64,000 bases of DNA from Candidatus Gastranaerophilales bacterium (GTDB taxonomy: Bacteria; Cyanobacteriota; Vampirovibrionia; Gastranaerophilales; Gastranaerophilaceae), in assembly GCA_947588745.1 (NCBI GenBank), contig CANPYW010000002.1:1-64000 (forward strand), in the 5' to 3' direction. This document shows, piece by piece, positions 3,215 to 39,118 of this stretch. Made by a program: the position numbers and the translations under genes. How positions within the stretch are numbered: position 1 is the first letter of the stretch; each line of letters begins with the position of its first letter. Below the pieces are notes generated by a model that searched no databases, had not been told where the DNA came from, and saw only the letters and a program-made list of their open reading frames with translations.

Positions 3215-4217
3215 TGTTTTGCTCCTTTATTAACTTATACAACGGTTGCTTATTTGAAACTGATAAATTTTTAGACAAGTTATATTCACCTTTTAATTCC
3301 ATGGTATATTTATGAATTGGTCTGCAATCATAAGTTATTTTAAAACGGTTTGTGGTTATAAATTCACCAAAAAAGTTCAATGCGAGTATTGTATCCATAC
3401 AATCAAGTTCTTTTTCCAATACCCCTATTTGCGTAATTGCACTTAAAACATAACAAAATGACACATTAATGCCATATTTTTTAAATTCCAAGATAATTGA
3501 ATCTATTGTTGGTGATATGTAATAAACAAAATCATCCACATAATTAAAGTCTTTATAGACTAAAAATAAATTTTTTCTATAATAGCCTTTTTGAAGGGGC
3601 TTTGAATAACTGAAATTTTCTATCAGTTTTTTATTAATTCTTTGCTTCCAAACTTCAACTTCCTGAAATGTTAATTCTAAATCATCTTTTTTCTTCTTTA
3701 TTTTATTCAAATGAGGCATTATTAAAAACAACAATTTAGAATTTTCCAAAGGTGTATCCGAAATCAATTCGCTTTGCATTTTTCCGGAAGATTGCCCCGC
3801 CGTTTGTTCAGCATAATTCGGCGAAGGCATTGCATTAACTTTTTTATGTGCTTTACGTTTTTGTATATTTTTTAATCTCTTTTCTTCCTTTTCTATACTA
3901 TCTATTATCGAATAATAAATATTATTTAATATAAAATCAACCACAAATCCAATAACCAGCGAAATTACACCTATAATAGCAAGCGAAAAGTCAGCAGATA
4001 TTCCCTGTGGCTTGTAAAATTTACTTACAATTTGATACGGTACTTGAAATAACGGTGCAAATAAATATAACCATTCAACGTCTAAACAGTCTAAAAACCA
4101 AAATACAAAAGCTAAAAATGCATAAAAGAAAAATACAAAACACAAAAATTTTGCACTATTTACCAATTGTGCATAATTTTCAAGTTGTGATAATTTTTTA
4201 TTATTTCTGCTCTGCAT
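3189..4217 (-). CDS. membrane protein of unknown function in the panBC-dut operon
   Basis: 342 residues, family not recognised. After a charged N-terminus there is a hydrophobic segment (about residues 23-45, rich in Phe) and a second pair of apolar stretches (about 76-100), then a charged Lys/Glu-rich linker (about 105-150) and a soluble C-terminal domain of about 170 residues with alternating beta/alpha character (FLVYKDFNYVDDFVYY..., ALNFFGEFITTNRF...). That pattern loosely recalls a degenerate nucleotide-cyclase or GGDEF-like fold, but I see no catalytic motif. It starts 5 bases after panC ends and overlaps dut, so it is cotranscribed with them. Operon membership does not by itself reveal its role. 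Confidence 0.6.
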   Translation of the reverse strand: MQSRNNKKLSQLENYAQLVNSAKFLCFVFFFYAFLAFVFWFLDCLDVEWLYLFAPLFQVPYQIVSKFYKPQGISADFSLAIIGVISLVIGFVVDFILNNIYYSIIDSIEKEEKRLKNIQKRKAHKKVNAMPSPNYAEQTAGQSSGKMQSELISDTPLENSKLLFLIMPHLNKIKKKKDDLELTFQEVEVWKQRINKKLIENFSYSKPLQKGYYRKNLFLVYKDFNYVDDFVYYISPTIDSIILEFKKYGINVSFCYVLSAITQIGVLEKELDCMDTILALNFFGEFITTNRFKITYDCRPIHKYTMELKGEYNLSKNLSVSNKQPLYKLIKEQNNENESNKA

Positions 4218-20077: not shown

Positions 20078-20106
20078 TTGACAATGAATTTTACAAATGA
20101 TATTAT
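20078..20106 (+). promoter_or_regulatory. near-consensus promoter of the candidate RiPP locus
   Basis: TTGACA (20078-20083), a 17-base spacer and TATTAT (20101-20106). This matches the sigma-70 consensus at 11 of 12 positions and should be strong. Start of transcription is expected near 20113, giving a leader of about 43 bases before the peptide ATG at 20156. Confidence 0.8.
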
Positions 20107-20155: not shown

Positions 20156-20305
20156 ATGGATAAAAATAATACTTTAGTTAAAGACGTTAAATCATCTGAA
20201 AAATTATCTTTTTATAAATCGTCTTCAATGAAAATATCAATGGGAAGTTGCTCAAATCAAGCTCTTAGTCAGACCTGGGGTTGTTGCCAGGGATGTTGTT
20301 ATTAA
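20156..20305 (+). CDS. candidate RiPP precursor peptide, C-terminal WGCCQGCCY
   Basis: 49 residues from ATG 20156, which has GGAAAGGGG upstream; an open frame extending back to 20078 overlaps the promoter and is rejected. The N-terminal about 30 residues are charged and Ser/Lys-rich (MDKNNTLVKDVKSSEKLSFY...), like a leader peptide. The C-terminus TWGCCQGCCY holds four of the five Cys residues as two CC pairs, with a fifth Cys at residue 32. The gene precedes a PqqD-like recognition domain, a radical SAM/SPASM domain and an ATP-grasp gene, the usual order of precursor then maturases. I know no named family with this exact core. Cys-rich radical SAM peptides such as ranthipeptides are the nearest concept. 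Confidence 0.75.
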   Translation: MDKNNTLVKDVKSSEKLSFYKSSSMKISMGSCSNQALSQTWGCCQGCCY

Positions 20306-20352
20306 TATATTCTCCTGTTTTATTCCGCTAATTTTTGAGGGTTGTATTTTAA

Positions 20353-20682
20353 ATGATTCCTGAGTGGGTTTGTACTAATGTCGTAAATTTTGAGCGTGAA
20401 AATTCAAGGGCTTATATTTCAAATATTATTACTTGTGAAATTTTTTGGCTTCAAAATGAATCGAGTGATTTATGGTATAAACTCATCGGTTCTTCTGATA
20501 TTAAAGAGGTTGAAGAATATGCGAAACAAAGAAATTTAATTGATGAATTACCCGAATTTTTATCACTGTTGCAATCAAAAGGTTTATATTATCCCGATGA
20601 TGTTGATAAATCGGTTTATTCAAATAACGTACCAAAAAGTTACGGCGATTTGCAAAAAGGAATTGATTTTAGAGCGGAATAG
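20353..20682 (+). CDS. PqqD-like RiPP recognition element, ends at an in-frame TAG before the radical SAM domain
   Basis: 109 residues resembling a PqqD-type winged-helix leader-binding domain: a beta-rich start (NSRAYISNIITCEIFWLQNESSDLWYKLIGSSDIKEVEEYAKQ), then helices ending LPEFLSLLQSKGLYY, which is the usual PqqD pattern. The function would be to bind the leader of the 49-residue peptide and present it to the maturase. The TAG at 20680-20682 ends it, but the same frame continues without another stop to 21699 and encodes the radical SAM enzyme. The natural ancestor was therefore probably one 448-residue protein with this domain N-terminal, as in many peptide maturases. A weak GAGGG lies 11 bases before the ATG. 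Confidence 0.7.
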   Translation: MIPEWVCTNVVNFERENSRAYISNIITCEIFWLQNESSDLWYKLIGSSDIKEVEEYAKQRNLIDELPEFLSLLQSKGLYYPDDVDKSVYSNNVPKSYGDLQKGIDFRAE

Positions 20683-21699
20683 AATAAATTAAATAAAAAA
20701 GAACGTAAGTTAACCCGTATTCAGTTTGATATTACATATAAGTGCAATGAAAATTGTGTACACTGCTATAATAATAAAGATATCCCAAATGTTTCTCTCC
20801 GTTTTGAAGATGTCAAAAGAATTATTGACGAAGCCTATGATTTAGGTCTTATTCAGGTTATATTATCCGGTGGCGAATGCACTTTGGCTGATGATTTCTT
20901 AAAAATTATACGTTATATACGAAAAAAAAGGCTTGAATTGTATATTTTCACCAACGGTCAAACTATGTATGATAAACCTGGGCTTTTTGAAGAAATTGTT
21001 TCGCTTATACCTGCAACTGTTGCTTTATCCGTTTACAGTATGAACCCCGAAATACATGATAAAATTACGAGAGTCAAAGGTTCATGGGAAAAAACAATAT
21101 CCGTTGCGAAAAAGCTTCTGGACAGACATGTTCCCGTTGAAATAAAGTCTTTTTTAACAAAATACAATGCAGATGATTTTCGTGAAGTTTTTGATTTTGC
21201 GTTTAAGAATAATTGTATTCCAAATGTGAGCGAATATTTAATTGAAAATAAAGACGGAAGTAATTTGCATACCAGAATTACAAAAGAGCAGCAGAAAAAA
21301 TTCTATGAATATTTGTATGAAAATAAATTAAGAAATTTTGTACGAACCATTGATGATGAGTATCTCAATGATTATCCTTGTCTTGCGGGTCAAACAACTT
21401 TACACATAGATCCGAATTTTAACGTAACTCCGTGTCCGAGTGCAAATTTCATATTTACAAATTTACGTGATAAATCATTAAAGGATTTTTGGCTTGATGA
21501 TAAATACTGCAGTACTTTTGGTAAATTCAGGACAGATAAAATAAAAGATTACAAAGATTGTTTTAAAGAAGAATATTGTAAATATTGTGAATTTTGTCCA
21601 GCCAAATTTCTTAATAAAAACGCAAGAAAAGCAGATGTTTGCGAAAATGCAAAATTTAGGATGAATATTATAAAAAAATATGAACAACAATTACATTAA
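20683..21699 (+). CDS. radical SAM/SPASM peptide maturase, same frame as the upstream domain after TAG, no canonical start
   Basis: The frame carries a complete radical SAM domain: CX3CX2C as CNENCVHC (Cys codons at 20743, 20755 and 20764), SGGE at 20866-20877 and a C-terminal SPASM-type Cys region (CLAGQTTLHIDPNFNVTPC, DCFKEEYCKYCEFC, then a final Cys) able to bind auxiliary clusters. Such enzymes make thioether or C-C links in peptides. Between the TAG and the first Cys there is no ATG, GTG or TTG in frame; the first canonical start, TTG at 20884, would delete the SAM cluster. Activity therefore needs readthrough of TAG, a non-canonical ATT start, or the gene is a recent pseudogene. The remaining frame is intact. 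Confidence 0.8.
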   Translation, partial: NKLNKKERKLTRIQFDITYKCNENCVHCYNNKDIPNVSLRFEDVKRIIDEAYDLGLIQVILSGGECTLADDFLKIIRYIRKKRLELYIFTNGQTMYDKPGLFEEIVSLIPATVALSVYSMNPEIHDKITRVKGSWEKTISVAKKLLDRHVPVEIKSFLTKYNADDFREVFDFAFKNNCIPNVSEYLIENKDGSNLHTRITKEQQKKFYEYLYENKLRNFVRTIDDEYLNDYPCLAGQTTLHIDPNFNVTPCPSANFIFTNLRDKSLKDFWLDDKYCSTFGKFRTDKIKDYKDCFKEEYCKYCEFCPAKFLNKNARKADVCENAKFRMNIIKKYEQQLH

Positions 21700-22564
21700 T
21701 ACGCCTAAATACTTTTTAAGGTATTTATTACAGCGTGGTATTCCTATTTGTTTATATAAGTATTTGTTAAAGTGGAAATATAAACAATTATATAAATTGA
21801 ATTTAGATTTAAAAAATCCGCTCAGATTAAGCGAAAAACTGCAATATCTTAAATTAAACGATAGTTCAAAGTTAAAAACATTACTTTCCGACAAAATATA
21901 TGTTAAAACCTACGTAAATGAAAAATGTTCGGACTTAAAAACGGCTAAAATATATCAAACGGCAGATTGTTTTGATGATATTAATTTTGATACGCTTCCT
22001 GACACTTTTGTATTAAAAACAAATCATGCTTGGAAAACAAATGCTTATGTAATAAACAAAAATGTATTAACTTCAAAAGAAAAAAAATTTTATAAAAATT
22101 TCTATGATAAAGTTTTAAAAATTAATTATTCTTATTGGGCATATTTAGAAATGCAATATAAAAATATAAAGCCCCGAATTTTTGCTGAAGAACTTTTAAA
22201 AATGAAATATTGGGAAATATCTAATTATGAGGTATATTGTTTCAACGGGAAACCCGAATTCATTTTGTTTAGAGCGGTCGATAAGTTTATAGAACAAAGT
22301 ATATATTCACCCTGTGGTAAAAAACTCAACTTTGATATTGAGTTTCAAACAAAAAACATAACTAAAATGCCCAATAAAATTGAAGAAGCGGTATATTATT
22401 CAAAAAAGTTATCTAAAGAGTTTGATTTTGTCAGAGTCGATTTTATGGAGTCCAATAATGAACTTTATTTTTGTGAAATGACATTTACTCCTTATTCGGG
22501 CTTTATTAAGTTTATACCCGAATTCTATGACTTATATTATGGTAAGAAATTAAATCTAAGTTAA
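21680..22564 (+). CDS. TupA-like ATP-grasp protein, RiPP locus copy
   Basis: 294 residues matching the TupA-like ATP-grasp group: NPLRLSEKLQYLKLND, LSDKIYVKTYVNEKCSD, INFDTLPDTFVLKTNHAW with the ATP-binding Lys, RIFAEELL, YEVYCFNGKPEFIL, and the metal/ATP site FVRVDFMESNNELYFCEMTFTPYSGF. Founding member TupA joins glutamate units in a cell-wall teichuronopeptide, so an amide- or ester-forming ligase is expected. It overlaps the radical SAM frame by 20 bases, has no ribosome site of its own and is thus coupled to it. A paralog at 37659-38573 also neighbours a Cys-rich peptide. A peptide-tailoring role is inference. Confidence 0.8.
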   Translation: MNNNYINTPKYFLRYLLQRGIPICLYKYLLKWKYKQLYKLNLDLKNPLRLSEKLQYLKLNDSSKLKTLLSDKIYVKTYVNEKCSDLKTAKIYQTADCFDDINFDTLPDTFVLKTNHAWKTNAYVINKNVLTSKEKKFYKNFYDKVLKINYSYWAYLEMQYKNIKPRIFAEELLKMKYWEISNYEVYCFNGKPEFILFRAVDKFIEQSIYSPCGKKLNFDIEFQTKNITKMPNKIEEAVYYSKKLSKEFDFVRVDFMESNNELYFCEMTFTPYSGFIKFIPEFYDLYYGKKLNLS

Positions 22565-37658: not shown

Positions 37659-38573
37659 ATGGAAACATTACAAAAAAATACTCAAGAAATGCTACAAACT
37701 TTTTCTTATAAGAATTTTTTAGCATTAAAAGAAAAAGAATATCCAAAACTTTTAGAAAAGATATTCGAAATGAATACGGGTTATAGCTTAAATTTAGATA
37801 ACCCTAAAACTTTTAATGAAAAAATACAATGGTTAAAATTATATGATTTATCACCGCTTAAGACATTCTTAACTGATAAAGTTCTTGTAAGAGGCTGGAT
37901 TAGTGAAAAAATAGGCGATAAATATTTAAAACCTGTTTTATGGATTGGAAAAAATTTTGATGATATTCCGTTTGACAATCTGCCTGATAGGTTTATTATA
38001 AAGGCAAATAACGGGTGCAAATGGCAATATAAAATTAAAGATAAAACAAAATTTTTAGAAAATAAACAAATTTTCAACTATGTAAAATTGAGATTTGACG
38101 GCTGGATGGTGCAGAAATTTCATTTATTCGGTGGCTTTGAGCTGCAATACAAAGATATTGAACCTCAAATAATAATCGAAGAACTGTTACCACTGGATAT
38201 CGACGAGAATTCTCTTGAGTTTGAAATTTATTGTTTTAATTCTAAACCTATGTTTTATCAGGAAATTAAATATATCAAGCCACCGGTGTGTTGTGTATAT
38301 AGTAAAGACTACTCAATATCCGATATCGAATTTAACCCTGATTATATAAAAATAAAAAAAGAGCCTGATAAATTTTTAAAAGAAGCAGTAGAACTTTCTT
38401 CAAATCTGGCTGAAAATTTTATTCTGGTGAGGGTTGATTGGATAAAATGTCAAAACAAATTATATTTTAATGAAATGACATTTACACCTTTTTCGGGTTT
38501 CTTTAGTTTTAAAAATAAAGACATAGATAAATATTTGGGATCACTACTAAAAATAGAGGTTAATAAAAACTAA
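37659..38573 (+). CDS. TupA-like ATP-grasp protein, second copy
   Basis: 304 residues, paralog of the protein at 21680-22564. Shared blocks are NPKTFNEKIQWLKLYDLSPLKTFLTDKVLV, FDNLPDRFIIKANNGCKW (ATP-binding Lys), IIIEELL, FEIYCFNSKPMFY, and FILVRVDWIKCQNKLYFNEMTFTPFSGF with the Glu/Asn-type metal site. TupA-like enzymes ligate carboxylates to amines using ATP. Its stop overlaps the start of the next gene (TAATG), coupling it to a 91-residue Cys-rich peptide. Bases from 38428 to its end are repeated 411 bases downstream. Confidence 0.8.
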   Translation: METLQKNTQEMLQTFSYKNFLALKEKEYPKLLEKIFEMNTGYSLNLDNPKTFNEKIQWLKLYDLSPLKTFLTDKVLVRGWISEKIGDKYLKPVLWIGKNFDDIPFDNLPDRFIIKANNGCKWQYKIKDKTKFLENKQIFNYVKLRFDGWMVQKFHLFGGFELQYKDIEPQIIIEELLPLDIDENSLEFEIYCFNSKPMFYQEIKYIKPPVCCVYSKDYSISDIEFNPDYIKIKKEPDKFLKEAVELSSNLAENFILVRVDWIKCQNKLYFNEMTFTPFSGFFSFKNKDIDKYLGSLLKIEVNKN

Positions 38574-38665
38574 TGGATAATATAGATATAGATTTCAATT
38601 CATTGGACGATGGCATAATAGATGACCTGTACAATGATGTATTAGAAACCGGAACCTTTTTAGCA
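38428..38665 (+). repeat. direct repeat, copy 1 (ATP-grasp 3' end plus peptide 5' end)
   Basis: This 238-base segment recurs at 38839-39077 with two substitutions and one inserted base. It covers the last 146 bases of the ATP-grasp gene and the first 93 of the peptide gene. The repeat period is 411 bases. Confidence 0.95.
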
Positions 38666-38848
38666 CGGACTAAATGCTATCAAGCCTCTTTCTCGTATGG
38701 AGGTGGAGATATTGCTTATTGTAGTTTTATGTATTGTGAAGCTGATGAAAATGGTTATAGGATTTATGGAACCTGTAATTGGACTCCGACACAAAGAATA
38801 TCAGCTTATAACATTTACTACTATTGTAGTTGTCCTTATGAGGGTTGA
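38573..38848 (+). CDS. candidate modified-peptide precursor, acidic leader and six-Cys C-terminal part
   Basis: 91 residues. The N-terminal about 30 residues are strongly acidic (MDNIDIDFNSLDDGIIDDLY), like a leader. The rest holds six Cys (35, 50, 55, 68, 85, 87) among Tyr, Gly and Ser, ending YYYCSCPYEG. The start overlaps the ATP-grasp stop as TAATG, so enzyme and peptide are made together. The last three residues come from the duplication junction; the decayed copy downstream ends YFYCTCP followed by a stop, which suggests the ancestral C-terminus was YxYCxCP. No signal peptide or known family. Function as an ATP-grasp substrate is inferred from coupling. Confidence 0.65.
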   Translation: MDNIDIDFNSLDDGIIDDLYNDVLETGTFLARTKCYQASFSYGGGDIAYCSFMYCEADENGYRIYGTCNWTPTQRISAYNIYYYCSCPYEG

Positions 38849-38984
38849 TTGGATAAAATGTCAAAACAAATTATATTTTAATGAAATGACATTTACACCT
38901 TTTTCGGGTTTCTTTAGTTTTAAAAATAAAGACATAGATAAATATTTGGGATCACTACTAAAAATAGAGGTTAATAAAAACTAA
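38839..38984 (+). pseudogene. duplicated 3' fragment of the ATP-grasp gene
   Basis: Encodes only the last 47 or so residues of the TupA-like protein (VDWIKCQNKLYFNEMTF onward) with the same TAA stop. It has no start of its own and is a by-product of the tandem duplication. Confidence 0.85.
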
Positions 38985-39077
38985 TGGATAATATAGATAT
39001 AGATTTCAATTCATTGGACGATAGCATAATAGATGACCTGTACGATGATGTATTAGAAAACCGGAACCTTTTTAGCA
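38839..39077 (+). repeat. direct repeat, copy 2
   Basis: Second copy of 38428-38665, differing by two substitutions (in the codons for Gly14 and Asn21 of the peptide) and a one-base insertion in AAAACCGG. Beyond 39077 about 132 bases of the unit are missing, then similarity to 38811-38838 resumes at 39091-39117. Confidence 0.95.
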
Positions 39078-39118
39078 GAAGTTAAATTAAACATTATTTC
39101 TATTGTACTTGTCCTTAA
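38984..39118 (+). pseudogene. decayed second copy of the six-Cys peptide gene
   Basis: Starts like the first copy (MDNIDIDFNSLDDSIIDDLY, then DDVLE), but a one-base insertion shifts the frame to a stop at 39083-39085 after 33 codons. The central Cys-rich part is deleted. A remnant of the 3' end (39092-39118) still reads HYFYCTCP and stop in another frame, differing from the first copy's YYYCSCP, so this was once a distinct paralogous peptide. Confidence 0.8.

Follow-up and report, generated by a model that had tools for sequence, protein, structure and literature searches.

A 64,000-nt stretch of DNA from a Candidatus Gastranaerophilales bacterium (the window) carries a locus which, with a probability of about 0.6, belongs to a family of RiPP-type systems in gut Gastranaerophilales built around a TupA-like ATP-grasp ligase paired with a small precursor peptide, and in which one step is probably no longer active. 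The architecture of the locus is that of the RRE-radical SAM RiPPs; its parts are listed in Table 1 together with those of a second ligase-peptide pair. The gene order, the folds, the recurrence of the family, the conservation of the type A leader and the in-frame TAG were observed. Pairs of TupA ligase and peptide genes apparently make up a large, undescribed family with very variable peptides, and there is a substantial chance that they form a class of their own. No published family combining TupA with a precursor peptide, nor any account of a Gastranaerophilales RiPP or ATP-grasp, was found in the open-access literature; an earlier description is possible.

Table 1. Features of the two TupA-peptide regions of the window
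Feature	Coordinates	Strand	Basis
Promoter-like TTGACA-17-TATTAT, TG before the -10	20078..20106	+	consensus scan, 11/12 positions
49-aa candidate precursor peptide, Cys-rich tail TWGCCQGCCY	20156..20305	+	ATG, Shine-Dalgarno, shuffle frequency, position
RRE (PqqD-like, winged-helix leader-binding) ORF, ends in in-frame TAG	20353..20682	+	AlphaFold model, structure matches
In-frame TAG in RRE-radical SAM linker; most relatives read through as one protein	20680..20682	+	alignment, genome search
Radical SAM/SPASM frame, CNENCVHC and SPASM cysteines kept, no canonical start before the cluster motif	20683..21699	+	PF04055, PF13186
TupA-like ATP-grasp ligase, intact, ATP-grasp residues kept	21680..22564	+	PF14305 5e-29; invariant residues in alignment
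Second TupA-like ATP-grasp, no radical SAM gene nearby	37659..38573	+	PF14305 5e-29
91-aa type A peptide, leader MDNIDIDFNSLDDGIIDDLYNDVLETGTFLA then Cys/Tyr-rich tail	38573..38848	+	leader profile E 9e-9 (sequence itself a member of the profile)
Partial tandem duplicate: TupA tail and second, truncated leader ORF (38984-39085)	38830..39085	+	direct repeat

The recurring unit is a TupA-like ATP-grasp gene (PF14305) together with a small peptide gene, the radical SAM gene being optional. A PF14305 search was positive in 34 of the 41 genomes of the genus and gave 10 matches in the genome of the window, 41 in G009 and 38 in G010. At most sites an ORF of 45-165 aa begins within a few nucleotides of the TupA stop, typically anywhere from an overlap to +30 nt. 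The peptides designated type A share a common leader, ENLSxEEIxxLYxDIxE, which is joined to unrelated cores rich in Cys, Tyr and Gly. Among the leader matches listed in the genus, 86 of 150 were located just downstream of a listed TupA gene (83 at 14-80 nt), a count in which the adjacency of the profile's own 27 members is not independent, such pairs having been used to construct it. The true share of paired leaders is higher, since the count covers listed matches on both the leader and the TupA side and most of the 13 unpaired ones examined were at contig ends. True orphan leaders nevertheless exist (L192, and a tandem pair in L187). When 288 family genomes were searched, the leader proved to be confined to the genus, the two exceptions being weak matches within 300-aa frames. 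The 51 viral TupA ORFs gave no leader match at or below E 0.01 and viral contigs contained no close radical SAM relative, so viral carriage was rejected.

In a quick-method tree of 79 TupA proteins the window copy grouped with all other copies from loci with type B peptides (described below; support 98), the type A copies formed a second group (support 99), and these peptide-paired groups stood apart from most of the TupA proteins that have no peptide. Some TupA copies in the genus do lack a peptide, and stops interrupt several TupA copies. The C-terminal residues of the peptides vary; Lys is slightly over-represented among them (17 of 41, background 20%, P 0.0015), which does not point to any single ligation site. 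The original prediction had overlooked the pair as a recurring unit, including its second copy in the same window (37659-38848), which is followed by a 243-nt direct repeat of 95% identity.

At the first locus the candidate precursor is a 49-residue ORF, present as predicted. An AAAGGGG Shine-Dalgarno sequence lies 7 nt before its ATG, and about 50 nt further upstream there is a near-consensus promoter box, which is a consensus match only, in a region where 24 sites were found and 20 expected. ATG ORFs of at least 40 aa with at least four Cys in the last 12 residues occurred at a frequency of 5e-5 (5 per 100,000, estimated from 20,000 Markov shuffles of the intergenic region holding the ORF), so at that level chance does not account for a frame with such a Cys-rich tail. 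The peptide occupies the same place as the small peptides of related radical SAM-TupA loci. A homologue search of 288 family genomes gave no convincing match to it (best E 0.02 or worse, two with stops). The suggested recurrence of WGCCxGCCY-like peptides was thus not found in the literal sense; small peptides do recur in this place beside homologous enzymes, yet with unrelated cores. When the 49-mer was scored with a profile built from the remaining type B peptides, it did no better than shuffled sequences, and because 430 of 500 shuffles equalled its score, homology to the type B leader was dropped and no leader homology is claimed for this peptide. No transporter or dedicated protease was seen adjoining the locus, and NCBIfam models run against eight peptides and two TupA proteins gave no match.

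The next ORF encodes the predicted PqqD-like leader-binding domain, which structure bears out. Pfam did not recognise PqqD in the window copy; 8 of 33 relatives matched. An AlphaFold model based on 33 sequences reached a pLDDT of >90 over residues 1-80, with the order b1-b2-b3-a1-a2-a3. Its best structural match was TbiB1 (Z 10.9, rmsd 2.0 over 78 residues), and further matches were TigE (Z 8.4), lasso B1 (8.3), TruD (7.5), SuiB (6.7) and CteB (5.6). The top matches were RiPP leader-binding domains only.

The TAG that ends the RRE ORF is in the same frame as the radical SAM/SPASM sequence behind it. That sequence matched Radical_SAM (PF04055, 1e-23) and SPASM (PF13186, 1.5e-6) and retains every Cys that is invariant in the family, and the solved structures nearest to its profile were SkfB, CteB, PqqE and SuiB. 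The predicted domains and cysteines are therefore there, but they do not form an open gene, the stop codon having been missed. In an alignment of 22 relatives most were a single intact RRE-radical SAM-SPASM protein of 440-470 aa, and among the matches in its own genome a TAG was marked inside the window copy only. No ATG, GTG or TTG occurs between the TAG and the CxxxCxxC motif. Recoding of TAG was rejected because this is an ordinary stop here, ending 8 of the 55 window ORFs of at least 150 aa. An intact, translatable maturase was thus found in most relatives and not in the window copy. Because of the in-frame stop, the lack of a start codon and the intact fusion in most homologues, the window maturase is probably a recent pseudogene in this genome; an assembly error is less likely.

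It might then be asked whether the whole locus is a dead relic, in which the 49-aa ORF and TupA persist only since the stop is recent and from which no product is made. We rate the chance of this slightly above even, and it is compatible with the family-level explanation. Apart from the TAG without an alternative start, it is favoured by decay elsewhere in the family: in L088 the corresponding linker is frameshifted and the SPASM part truncated, L048 carries a frameshift near its start, the family member G030:C44 contains a TAA, and several TupA copies have the stops mentioned above. On the other hand, the catalytic motifs, TupA, the promoter and the peptide are all intact in the window, one assembly error would look identical, and TupA and peptide stand alone at other loci.

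Two further radical SAM copies are present in the same genome, on C21 (L002) and C11 (L003), the former with TupA and a 52-aa peptide ending in GGCSKYGMGGSCCCGGASQ, and 19 of the 41 genomes of the genus have a copy. Most of the relatives that bear a name are Candidatus Gastranaerophilales MAGs, and sample names point to animal guts for many of them; more distant ones come from Clostridia, Erysipelotrichaceae, Spirochaetia and Bacteroidales. The TupA loci of Clostridia and Bacilli (L056, L052) are on contigs of 3-4 kb and may be misbinned. Three kinds of small ORF accompany the radical SAM gene. Type B comprises Cys-rich peptides beside radical SAM and TupA genes (the window, L002, L009, L027, L015, L013 and L054); type A peptides, with the leader LSIEEINELFSDIIE, sit between TupA and radical SAM; and the third kind are short MLKISxxxKH peptides at loci that have no TupA. 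In a quick-method tree of 65 radical SAM proteins the position of the window copy among type B and other branches was not resolved. Some loci add genes for YcaO, asparagine synthase, GT8, a second radical SAM protein or a U32-like peptidase. The original reading of the locus as a RiPP architecture, which holds for the family, gains support from the RRE fold, from homologous loci with small peptides beside radical SAM and TupA, and from the RiPP-type enzymes YcaO and asparagine synthase at some of these loci.

Several accessory or unusual genes were noted in the course of this comparison. YcaO lies beside TupA and small peptides in L054 (6535-8265) and L185 (14044-15831), in both by Pfam match, and in L048 (5219-6890) by N-terminal resemblance only. 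A protein of ~370-390 aa (MYNFSVPMPY...) with weak matches to U32 peptidases directly adjoins TupA-peptide pairs in L169 (1072-2181), L179 (3717-4877), L183 (3492-4652) and L195 (981-2126) and is a candidate leader peptidase or accessory enzyme. The clostridial radical SAM relatives follow a ~300-aa protein of unknown family (L057, L070, L050, L051, L084, L094), and some of these loci have a 33-aa peptide, MLKITKVVxxSxANMSGCGK..CGIRAKMG (L057 3010-3111, L070 about 3980-4081). ORFs of 214-230 aa in L190 and L191 (G007) contain several tandem leader-like segments and then one Cys-rich tail. L202, L185 and L145 have a third kind of peptide adjoining TupA, with KIAATY near the C terminus in two.

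The window TupA gene is, as predicted, a TupA-like ATP-grasp overlapping the radical SAM frame, by 20 nt, and all parts of the locus are on one strand. The folds nearest to TupA are ArgX/LysX-LysW and D-Ala-D-Ala ligase, with RimK and PsnB also listed; no sequence relation to any solved structure was detectable. LysX/ArgX and RimK extend proteins with amino acids at the C-terminal end, whereas the putative substrate here is a hypervariable peptide. The TupA-like domain of Campylobacter Cj1438C, a capsule enzyme of the same fold type, makes amides on the glucuronic acid carboxylate of a polysaccharide (PMC11800379), while TupA here is coupled to a peptide gene. Given these fold neighbours and the amide formation by Cj1438C, the TupA reaction is, by analogy, likely to be a carboxylate-amine ligation on the peptide.

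The precedent of Cj1438C can also be turned the other way: TupA might be a cell-surface polysaccharide enzyme here too (PMC11800379), and the adjoining small ORFs unrelated, or surface antigens rather than substrates. The TupA copies without a peptide in the genus and the GT8 genes at a few loci would agree with this. We consider it improbable, however, in view of the tight coupling of the genes and the common leader. Moreover, minimal two-gene loci of TupA and peptide occur far from sugar genes, the two genomes richest in TupA (41 and 38 matches) have dispersed peptides, and the peptide-linked TupA proteins form separate clades.

RRE and radical SAM domains occur as separate proteins in other RiPP systems. 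That they are truly two proteins in the window, by read-through of the TAG or by initiation at an unusual codon, for instance an ATT near 20719, would accord with a break exactly in the non-conserved linker between the two domains, but is very unlikely, as TAG is a normal stop here, no canonical start is available, most relatives are intact fusions, and in L088, where the linker is also broken, the cause is a frameshift and the copy is decaying.

With sactipeptide and ranthipeptide systems (SkfB, CteB) the locus shares an RRE fused to a radical SAM/SPASM enzyme, a Cys-rich core and a small precursor directly upstream. It differs from them in the added TupA-like ATP-grasp and the interrupted maturase, and many of the sibling precursors have few or no Cys. 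As in the graspetides (microviridin, plesiocin PsnB), an ATP-grasp ligase adjoins a leader-core precursor, and as in grasp-with-spasm (TIGR04192), an ATP-grasp, a SPASM enzyme and a precursor share a single cassette. The pairing is known in principle (PMC8939145) and PsnB is among the fold neighbours of TupA, if a distant one, yet the locus is very unlikely to be a diverged graspetide or grasp-with-spasm system: TIGR04192 had no match in the genome at E 0.001 or better, the ligase is a PF14305 TupA that the graspetide and other ATP-grasp NCBIfam models miss and that is absent from the survey of PMC8939145, no repeated acidic core motif is present, and the window core, having no Asp or Glu after residue 15, lacks the acidic residues needed for graspetide side-chain esters or amides.

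How such a system may work can be outlined, although for substrate recognition, both chemistries, cleavage, export and biological role the outline is what we infer. The N-terminal part of the precursor would be bound by the RRE, or by TupA where an RRE is absent. The radical SAM/SPASM enzyme would crosslink the core by radical chemistry, most probably through a Cys-derived thioether, and TupA would use ATP to activate a carboxylate of the peptide and join it to an amine. Since the window tail has no acidic residue, its C terminus is the sole carboxylate, and C-terminal amidation or a tail-to-Lys macrolactam is therefore predicted for this peptide rather than graspetide-type side-chain links. 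At the window locus the TAG probably halts production of the radical SAM enzyme, leaving RRE, TupA and peptide. Docking of the leader on TupA was also modelled by read-through, with stops read as Gly to join the neighbouring genes; because the leader had a pLDDT of about 60 and the core was disordered, this model was set aside as evidence.

It is conceivable, though we hold it at somewhat less than an even chance, that the TupA-like ligases constitute a new RiPP class in gut Gastranaerophilales, with a few to dozens of ligase-precursor pairs per genome, a common leader, unrelated cores, and radical SAM, YcaO, asparagine synthase or glycosyltransferase added locus by locus. The two-gene loci reduce the chemistry to one enzyme and one peptide. 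If TupA acts on peptides, a ligase family so far found characterised on polysaccharides would turn out to include enzymes that modify peptides, and a gut lineage not yet cultured would carry in each genome a dense set of genes for hypervariable modified peptides.
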